A stretch of 6,741 nt of DNA from contig CAMCIX010000088.1 of the NCBI GenBank assembly GCA_945875045.1, positions 1 through 6,741 on the forward strand. The letters are read 5' to 3'. Numbering within the stretch: the stretch's first letter is position 1; each line of letters opens with the position of its first letter. This document shows, in pieces, positions 1,303-6,741 of the stretch. The stretch comes from an uncultured Clostridia bacterium (lineage in GTDB: Bacteria; Bacillota; Clostridia; Oscillospirales; Acutalibacteraceae). The position numbers were made by a program, and so were the translations under genes. The notes beneath the pieces were generated by a model, which searched no databases, was not told the origin of the DNA, and worked only from the letters and a program-made list of their open reading frames with translations.

Positions 1303-1340
1303 TTTTCAAACCTCTTTTTTTAAATAATATTAACTTGCTG

Positions 1341-1379
1341 TTTGTAGGGACGGGTGCCCTTGACCGTCCGCCGGCAGGA
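1341..1379. repeat. GC-rich palindromic intergenic repeat
   Basis: The plus strand contains GGACGG (1348-1353) and CCGTCC (1364-1369), a perfect 6-bp inverted repeat around a 10-nt loop, flanked by TTTGTAG on one side and CCGCCGGCAGG on the other. Its GC content and look differ from the AT-rich leader around it. It resembles short dispersed palindromes I recall from intergenic regions of gut Clostridia (of the type GTAGGG-C-rich palindrome), but only one copy lies here, so repeat status is inferred. It sits between the riboswitch terminator and the oadB ribosome binding site, so it is part of the full-length mRNA leader. Confidence 0.5.
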
Positions 1380-1381
1380 AT

Positions 1382-1425
1382 AAAAAAAGACCTTTACTGC
1401 ACAAATTAAGTACAGTAAAAGTCTT
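1382..1425 (-). terminator. Intrinsic terminator of the oadB leader (riboswitch expression platform)
   Basis: On the minus strand AAGACTTTTACTG (1425-1413) pairs with CAGTAAAGGTCTT (1399-1387) over 13 bp, with one G-U wobble and a 13-nt loop, followed by a run of seven U (1388-1382). On the plus strand the same position is a C-A mismatch, so the element is better suited to minus-strand transcripts. The 5' arm includes the 3' strand of aptamer helix P1, so the terminator and the folded aptamer exclude each other. It would also stop transcripts that arrive from phoR. Confidence 0.9.
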
Positions 1426-1510
1426 GCCGTTTAATGCAGCCGCGGGACAAAAATCCGTATTGACGCAAGCTGCCGCGGTGAAAAGCACCGCCGGCTACTC
1501 CCTTAAACTT
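1414..1510 (-). promoter_or_regulatory. yybP-ykoY family manganese (Mn2+) riboswitch aptamer
   Basis: The minus-strand leader carries the conserved parts of this family in the right order: GGGAGUAGC after the P1 5' strand (1502-1495), a hairpin GCGGUG/CACCGC with loop CUUUU (1491-1475), a helix GCAGC/GCUGC enclosing the signature GCGUCAAUACG and a small GGAU/GUCC stem with UUUU loop, and finally GGCAAGACUUUU (1428-1417). P1 can form between 1509-1502 and 1421-1414 as two blocks of three pairs separated by two U-U mismatches. In the known family Mn2+ docks the GGGAGUAG and GUCAA loops together and stabilises P1. Here P1 overlaps the terminator arm, so ligand binding should prevent termination and switch oadB on. 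The P4 region is very short compared with the Lactococcus example. The identification rests on recalled motifs, not on a covariance-model search. Confidence 0.87.
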
Positions 1511-1516
1511 AAAGGA

Positions 1517-1545
1517 ATTATAACATACCCGTAAAAAAATTTCAA
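1517..1545 (-). promoter_or_regulatory. Sigma-A type promoter for the riboswitch-oadB transcript
   Basis: Minus strand: -35 TTGAAA (1545-1540), a 17-bp spacer, and a perfect -10 TATAAT (1522-1517) preceded by TGT, an extended -10. The spacer includes a T7 run. Counting from the -10 puts the transcription start near A1510, the first base of the riboswitch aptamer, which gives a leader of about 208 nt before the oadB start. The -35 box lies only 28 bp after the phoR stop codon. Confidence 0.88.
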
Positions 1546-3904: not shown

Positions 3905-4564
3905 TTACAACAACGGCTGACCGTTTATTTCGAGCTTGAATATAAGCCCTAATTTCTCCGCCGCCTTGCGGCATAATAGCATTCGGTTCATAAAAATCTC
4001 GAAATATTCCATAATACTGCCGTAGGCGGTGTCGATAGAAAGGCGTAGGGTGATTGTTTTTTTGTCCTCGCTTATTTCGAGCGCCGAGCTTTTTACCGAA
4101 TAATTCACCCTGTCGTGAATATCAAAGGTCGATTTATCGCGGTTTCGAACGCGGCTTCGGCGAACATCCGACTTGTCGGCTAAAATAAGGGCGGCGGAGA
4201 CCGCGTCTACCGGTACGCCCGTGCCCTCGTCGTGATTGCCTATTGCCGAAACCACCGTCGCAATGTCGCGGGTGTCCATATTAAGCTTGTCTAAAATCCT
4301 GAACGCCATTACCGCGCCGCTTTGCGAGTGCTCGATACGGTTTACAAGGTTGCCTATATCGTGCAGATATGCGGCAATTCTCGCAAGCTCAATTTCGTGC
4401 TCGGAATAGCCCATAACCGACAGAATGTAGCGGCAGGTCTCTGCGACCTTACCGACGTGGGCAAAGCTGTGCTCGGTAAAGCCTAAAGCCGCAAGCGACC
4501 TGTCCGCTCCCTCGATATACGCCTTAATCGATTCATTCTTTTTTAATTCTTCATAGGTAAGCAT
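3905..4564 (-). CDS. HD-domain phosphohydrolase inside the pho operon
   Basis: Complete, 219 residues, no signal peptide or membrane segment. Metal-binding residues of an HD hydrolase are visible: His36 in HSFAHVGKV, His68-Asp69 in LHDIGN, His79 in EHS, His111-Asp112 in GNHDEG and Asp130 in LADKSD. This pattern resembles the H...HD...H...H...D arrangement of HDIG proteins and allows a metal-dependent phosphatase or nucleotide hydrolase. It is not a recognisable HD-GYP domain. The C-terminal part (about 150-219) is a beta-rich then helical tail I cannot assign. The gene is 27 nt after phoU and 10 nt before the regulator gene, so it is co-transcribed with the phosphate system; a role in phosphate signalling is inference from position only. 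Its ribosome binding site lies in a hairpin. The substrate is unknown. Confidence 0.85.
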   Translation of the reverse strand: MLTYEELKKNESIKAYIEGADRSLAALGFTEHSFAHVGKVAETCRYILSVMGYSEHEIELARIAAYLHDIGNLVNRIEHSQSGAVMAFRILDKLNMDTRDIATVVSAIGNHDEGTGVPVDAVSAALILADKSDVRRSRVRNRDKSTFDIHDRVNYSVKSSALEISEDKKTITLRLSIDTAYGSIMEYFEIFMNRMLLCRKAAEKLGLIFKLEINGQPLL

Positions 4565-6695: not shown

Positions 6696-6741
6696 CTGTC
6701 TCTTATACACATCTGACGCTGCCGACGATATGCAGTGTGTA
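6696..6741. other. Illumina Nextera i5-side adapter (library artefact)
   Basis: Positions 6696-6714 are the reverse complement of the Tn5 mosaic end, 6715-6728 the Nextera read-1 tail, 6729-6736 read TATGCAGT (reverse complement of ACTGCATA, the i5 index I know as S506), and 6737-6741 are the first bases of the P5 adapter. Genomic sequence stops at 6695. Confidence 0.98.

Follow-up and report, generated by a model that had tools for sequence, protein, structure and literature searches.

Riboswitches of the yybP-ykoY class (RF00080) share the arrangement P1.1/L1/P1.2, the helices P2 and P3, and a loop L3 whose invariant adenosine contacts Mn2+ through its N7 in the solved members (UCA41AUUC in L. 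lactis). Mn2+ stabilises P1.1, which permits readthrough (PMC6754395). In E. coli, the class includes the leaders of mntP and alx, both regulated by Mn2+ (PMC9603457). Two yybP-ykoY crystal structures display a four-way junction with P4, which is not a defining feature, since the Mn2+/Ca2+-sensing yybP-ykoY riboswitch of streptococcal mgtA (PMC11434433) is described with a three-way junction; its target is a P-type ATPase (PMC9495176, PMC11434433). In Streptococcus pyogenes, SSRC10 precedes a putative calcium transporter (PMC3675131), and we infer that SSRC10 is this same mgtA riboswitch. The Na+-I riboswitch (DUF1646 motif) is a two-helix RNA that is found, in some cases, before oxaloacetate decarboxylase genes (PMC9337991). 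Regarding the decarboxylase itself, Asp203, Ser382 and Asn412 bind Na+ in the beta subunit of Salmonella oxaloacetate decarboxylase (OAD), Glu40 is needed for carboxybiotin decarboxylation, and OadG requires its tail (61-84) for holding the alpha but not the beta subunit (PMC7274780). Within the open-licence part of the PMC literature, we found no published tie of a yybP-ykoY-type RNA to oadB.

The window analysed here, a whole stretch of 6,741 nt, contains a leader RNA (Table 1) that agrees with the yybP-ykoY class in P1.1/L1/P1.2, P2, P3 with L3, the L3 adenosine, a terminator overlapping P1.1 and the exporter targets, and differs from it in being compact, without P4, below the Rfam cut-off and placed before an OadB-type gene. 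It has the three-way junction in common with the streptococcal mgtA riboswitch, while the targets differ. We suggest that this is probably a compact Mn2+ riboswitch that turns on a stand-alone OadB-type transporter working without the decarboxylase. The riboswitch part of this reading is well supported at the sequence level. The gene resembles part of a sodium pump but lies apart from the partner genes, which leads us to predict a transporter against excess manganese; an unexpected target would be added to the Mn2+-riboswitch regulon. The RNA-oadB arrangement recurs across several families of its phylum, which is Bacillota to judge from the titles of the named relatives.

Table 1. Features of the leader and of the genes behind it (positions in the window).
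Feature	Position	Strand	Basis or remark
Sigma-70-type promoter TTGAAA-N17-TATAAT	1517..1545	-	11/12 matches, TG before second hexamer
Compact three-way-junction aptamer of the Mn2+-riboswitch type	1414..1507	-	R3 76.3 bits, E 1.2e-19; family covariation
L3 loop GUCAAUACG	1456..1464	-	A at 1461 is the counterpart of L. lactis A41
Intrinsic terminator, 16 bp, with the P1.1 3' strand as its 5' arm	1387..1425	-	leader folding
Type-Q OadB paralogue, 379 aa	163..1302	-	PF03977 E 5e-150; TIGR01109; 6iva_A E 6.4e-97; tree
First 34 codons of a mini-OadG with a single membrane helix	49..150	-	cut by adaptor-like contig end

On the minus strand, a promoter-like site, the aptamer, the terminator and the start codon of oadB (1302) follow one another from 5' to 3'. 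The original prediction had named three conserved yybP-ykoY elements, and all three are present on this strand, GGGAGUAG at 1502-1495 and GGCAAGACUUU at 1428-1418 besides the L3 loop. It had also placed them behind a near-perfect promoter; the 11 of 12 matches at 1545-1517 stand, but the site is not significant alone, since 2 such sites were found against 0.9 +- 1.0 in shuffles. Transcription would start at about 1510. A second promoter-like site, TTAACA-N18-TATAAT, is located upstream of the main promoter (1584-1555, minus strand).

The aptamer is composed of P1.1, L1, P1.2, P2 and P3 with the L3 sequence UCAAUAC. P1.1 and L1 (GGGAGUA / AGAC) adjoin P1.2, as in the class, and an unpaired linker takes the place of the absent P4, so that the junction is three-way rather than four-way. 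The folding energy of the 131-nt leader is -52.8 kcal/mol (z -5.5), with a z of -2.3 for the aptamer by itself. A terminator overlapping P1.1 is possible in 36 from 36 RNA-oadB leaders tested (34 distinct; the sample excluded L010, L069, L072 and seven RNA-oadB leaders of the phylum). We predict that the window leader works as an ON switch in which the metal blocks termination: high Mn2+ would bind the aptamer and stabilise P1.1, whose 3' strand would then be occupied and unable to start the terminator, and oadB would be read through.

The search with RF00080 that had been proposed as a check failed: neither the 231-nt leader nor the own genome gave a match at E <= 10, and the whole window gave none at E <= 1. 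This result counts against our main explanation. No Rfam family attains its gathering score at the window leader, and the best match is SSRC10 (RF02617; 1382-1507, 34.4 bits, E 0.0012, cut-off 56), which spans the aptamer and the terminator exactly, yet has a different target. Nine homologous loci were scanned, with weak SSRC10 matches at the leader in 6 and sub-gathering RF00080 matches in 3, L080 having both. In a scan of 14 exporter leaders and six further oadB leaders, RF00080 gave sub-gathering matches in 4 of the former and in none of the latter, and the leaders before MntP and GDT1 reach only 23-27 bits against the cut-off of 45. A genome search with RF00080 found matches in 9 from 14 control genomes, above the cut-off in 2. 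The gathering score is a threshold set by the database and has no biological meaning of its own, and the compact form of the class drops below it even before mntP. Since RF00080 fails as proof, we used our own covariance models, whose E-values are rough.

The window OadB retrieved 166 relatives, and the analysis went on with the best 80 loci from named genomes. Ten leaders were aligned (90.9% of cells paired; 29 both-side changes vs 10.8 in shuffles) and used to build model R1, which in the own genome matches the window leader alone (150 from 1133 candidates scored) and matches 40 from 150 family genomes at E <= 0.1. For model R2, 58 leaders (57 distinct) were used, and it matches 142 from 398 phylum genomes at E <= 0.001. 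In alignment A4, both-side changes number 280 vs 83.5 in shuffles. Because the window is among the leaders behind R1 and R2, these two models are partly circular. The training set of R3 was therefore restricted to exporter leaders, 71 of them before MntP, GDT1, P-type ATPase and Na_Ca_ex genes, in an alignment laid out with R2 (406 both-side changes vs 118.4 in shuffles).

Over 588 kb, R3 gives 46 matches at E <= 1, all of them at the window, oadB and E. coli leaders. The next match in the window after the leader has only 8.2 bits. The model finds the E. coli mntP leader (22.5 bits, E 0.0043) and alx leader (20.1 bits, E 0.019), each just upstream of its gene, and 8 family plus 7 phylum RNA-oadB loci that were supplied to it. 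The presence of the same leader upstream of oadB homologues, also proposed as a check, was confirmed at 28 of the 80 named loci, in 27 of them immediately before oadB; in the operon of L010 the order is RNA, Na_Ca_ex, OadB (about 30 nt after Na_Ca_ex) and mini-OadG. The 52 loci with no R3 match count against the main explanation. At L045 (461-538), the RNA before oadB has a short P3, lacks a recognisable L3, and may be decayed or altered in its ligand.

The genes following the RNA were tallied at two levels. All 45 R1 places in the 150 family genomes precede genes for OadB (11), P-type ATPase (15), MntP (6), Na_Ca_ex (6), a CitMHS-like protein (1) or unclear products (6), the classes coming from BLAST clusters with representatives confirmed by Pfam. 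Known kinds of divalent-cation exporters thus follow at 27 of the 45 places and oadB at 11. In the phylum tally (89 places, all those listed with E <= 2.1e-6 minus the window's own), we counted P-type ATPase (24), Na_Ca_ex (23, many called at 23-26% identity, with two, L149 and L162, confirmed by Pfam), MntP (12), OadB (7) and CitMHS-like (1), besides 21 genes with no BLAST assignment and one place with no gene; the genes in L164 and L196 start more than 600 nt from the RNA. Pfam was run on 15 of the 21 unassigned genes and recognised GDT1 in 6 (L133, L138, L139, L153, L181, L206), TerC in 5 (L190, L201, L202, L205, L213) and LemA in 2 (L169, L179), with nothing in L207 and L216. From both tallies, the RNA mostly precedes divalent-cation exporters, with oadB as a recurring minority. 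Several of these exporters are among the targets that the original prediction names for the class, the RNA preceding mntP, TerC, GDT1 and P-type ATPase genes. As a plain observation, it never precedes both OadB and a P-type ATPase within one family genome.

Some arrangements in these tallies deserve a record. Tandem Na_Ca_ex genes have their own RNA copy each in L092 (353-448 and 1501-1591, minus strand). The LemA-family genes, to which L170 can be added by likeness, are not what one would expect behind a Mn2+ switch. A CitMHS-type permease gene lies behind the RNA in L104 (by Pfam) and in L200 (by likeness to L104).

The original prediction took the target for a Na+-pumping decarboxylase, a description that our data do not support for this gene, which is a separate OadB paralogue. 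The homologues at the 80 loci fall into two types, type Q, with the window protein, and classical OadB, and a branch with SH-aLRT 100 splits type Q from Salmonella OadB and five classical neighbours in what is a quick tree with a long-branch warning, omitting the near-duplicates L004, L013, L088 and L095 and the duplicate L081. The RNA label changes 20 times on the type-Q tree, fewer than in any of 500 shuffles, which indicates that the RNA is clustered within type Q, yet often gained or lost; L010, L069 and L072 are labelled RNA-negative in this tree, although R3 detects the RNA in each of them.

In the relatives, type-Q oadB is followed by a mini-OadG. Such a tiny OadG-like gene turned up at 32 from 35 named and 14 from 17 unnamed loci examined, the proteins having 43-55 aa in 24 of the 32 named loci. 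Both window ends (1-47 and 6696-6741) look like Nextera transposon adaptors, presumably from an artificial cut of the contig, so we consider the window mini-OadG truncated; its full-length homologue in L001 has 43 aa. Most mini-OadG proteins of the relatives stop before the alpha-binding C-tail. Three of four tested resemble NF040909 (OadG-related small transporter subunit; E 1.8e-5 to 0.0024), with 17.9, 18.6 and 24.6 bits vs a cut-off of 25, and the fourth, from L012, has no match.

The motif scan of fetched flanks detected no carboxyltransferase or biotin carrier at any of the 25 named RNA-bearing loci then known, nor were they seen beside type-Q oadB among the ORFs around 11 loci. The window contig ends inside mini-OadG, with further downstream neighbours out of view. 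The neighbours of type-Q oadB are mostly unrelated genes; the exceptions, close upstream and on the same strand, are CNNM/CorC (L007, L011), membrane pyrophosphatase (L014, L027), Na_Ca_ex (L010) and a biotin carrier (L047, L050, L053). Genes annotated as sodium-pump decarboxylase subunit beta, with no partners adjacent, would in this way gain a testable function.

The protein belongs to the same OAD_beta family as the Salmonella OAD beta-gamma subcomplex (6iva/6iww, PMC7274780), and the Na+-binding residues and Glu40 are kept in 92 from 92 type-Q rows (the window being counted twice, via L081, besides two further duplicate pairs). Unlike the Salmonella enzyme, type Q has no adjacent alpha partner, its relatives miss the gamma tail, and Arg304, of moderate effect in Salmonella, is lost in 91 from 92 rows. 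The substitutions Gly201Ala, Val384Phe and Val416Gln, at positions close in sequence to the ion-site residues, are found in 91 from 91 type-Q rows vs only 6 classical rows. This residue pattern fits a cation transporter with an altered site and does not indicate the ion moved.

OadB and mini-OadG may form an elevator transporter of the beta-gamma kind, which would move cations with no need of carboxybiotin. Our preferred reading can be extended, tentatively, to Mn2+ export by this pair, most likely in exchange for Na+ or H+, which would make it a candidate new exporter family. The candidate could be the ion-translocating core of a biotin decarboxylase pump that has lost its coupling to decarboxylation and come under the control of a Mn2+ riboswitch, although we hold this with some reserve; a subunit of a primary pump would then have turned into a stand-alone metal transporter. 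MntP is present in 28 from 28 family genomes examined, including the own genome (G000), so no exporter gap is shown, which counts against the main explanation. For the same reason, the idea that type-Q OadB is the only Mn2+ exporter of its genome is not supported. No RNA was seen before the G000 mntP (by eye and with R1).

The transporter could instead extrude Na+ by Na+/H+ antiport, induced by Mn2+ as a helper that sustains the gradient for Na+-coupled Mn2+/Ca2+ exporters or counters alkaline pH, and Mn2+ stress and the Na+ gradient would be linked. The operons with Na_Ca_ex, CNNM/CorC and membrane pyrophosphatase, the retained Na+-site residues, and the response of the E. coli class switches to both Mn2+ and alkaline pH (PMC9603457) are all consistent with it. 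However, Na_Ca_ex was not found in 17 from 18 RNA-oadB genomes, which also speaks for the main explanation. Among genomes without RNA-oadB, the search for Na_Ca_ex covered G066, of the same genus, which has it. We regard Na+ extrusion as rather doubtful.

The reading closest to the original prediction, a true beta subunit that borrows a carboxyltransferase and a biotin carrier while Mn2+ adjusts Na+ pumping, seems unlikely. Conservation of the Na+-site residues and Glu40 would be compatible with a decarboxylase function, and PF02436 occurs elsewhere in 14 from 18 RNA-oadB genomes, on another contig or about 128 kb away on the same one (G442), from where it could be shared; both facts count against our main explanation, as does the position of type-Q oadB behind a biotin carrier, with classical oadB further on, in L047, L050 and L053. 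On the other hand, this reading is opposed by the lack, in mini-OadG, of the C-tail that holds the alpha subunit in Salmonella and by the loss of Arg304. In G000, the classical beta subunit already has its partners, in a biotin carrier-oadB-carboxyltransferase operon on contig C177, with type-Q oadB and the RNA on C88. PF02436 was not found in G010 (69% complete), G113 (84%), G134 (100%) and G536 (96%), although an OadA match, a partial one, exists in G113, and G536 encodes a biotin carrier. The 100% complete G134 has the RNA and type-Q oadB as its one full OadB, and no decarboxylase alpha subunit was found there; OadA gave just a weak, partial match, and the two PF01039 matches lie in frames (311 and 263 aa) as long as acetyl-CoA carboxylase subunits. 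G066 (99% complete) carries a single OadB along with the classical operon, and the RNA gave no match in it. The tie to oxaloacetate or methylmalonyl-CoA metabolism, offered earlier as speculation, finds no support in these data. In L047, L050, L053, L070 and L071, type-Q and classical oadB are only a few kilobases apart, with a biotin carrier motif nearby.

From the claim of a Mn2+ riboswitch, the class-type aptamer, the L3 adenosine and the ON-type terminator stand, and Mn2+ itself is what we infer, as very probably the ligand. The L3 C and A are invariant in 16 from 16 aligned oadB leaders, and the same CA pattern, with a similar L1, is found before MntP, P-type ATPase and Na_Ca_ex genes where L3 can be aligned (not in L120, L122 and L124, of the P-type, and only partly in L116). 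A variant aptamer with the yybP-ykoY fold that senses Ca2+ or another metal ion would explain the odd target, and such variants are expected by Breaker and co-workers (PMC7266159). The mgtA aptamer binds Ca2+ tighter than Mn2+, although Mn2+ activates transcription more (PMC9495176), so Ca2+ is a possible ligand, which counts against the main explanation, and Na+-I riboswitches, a different RNA class, likewise lie before genes annotated as decarboxylase (PMC9337991). Against a variant ligand, L1 and the L3 CA are alike before oadB and the exporter genes, the L3 of the P-type ATPase leader L109 is identical to that of the window, and a gathering-score Rfam scan of 40 oadB loci (L010 and 39 of the 52 RNA-less ones) gave, besides tRNAs, a single cis-regulatory match, a lysine riboswitch about 1.9 kb upstream in L030. 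We therefore consider another metal ion quite improbable. Na+ as the ligand, suggested by the target and the Na+-I literature, was dropped since L1 and L3 match the exporter leaders; the Na+-I family has no Rfam match in the window leader at E <= 10. That the leader is a mere terminator or small RNA resembling a riboswitch by coincidence is hardly credible: RF00080 is not reached and SSRC10 is catalogued as an sRNA, but the R3 match (E 1.2e-19) and covariation far above shuffles contradict it.

Two minor observations concern other frames. In L126 (7424-7609, minus strand), a 61-aa frame contains only the OadB H1 hairpin motif IIGGADGPTAVYV and one hydrophobic stretch, and short OAD_beta matches of the H1-hairpin part are also found in longer frames of other genomes. 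In the window, an HD-domain phosphohydrolase-like gene (3905-4564, minus strand) lies, as judged by eye, amid phosphate-uptake and PhoB/PhoR-like genes.
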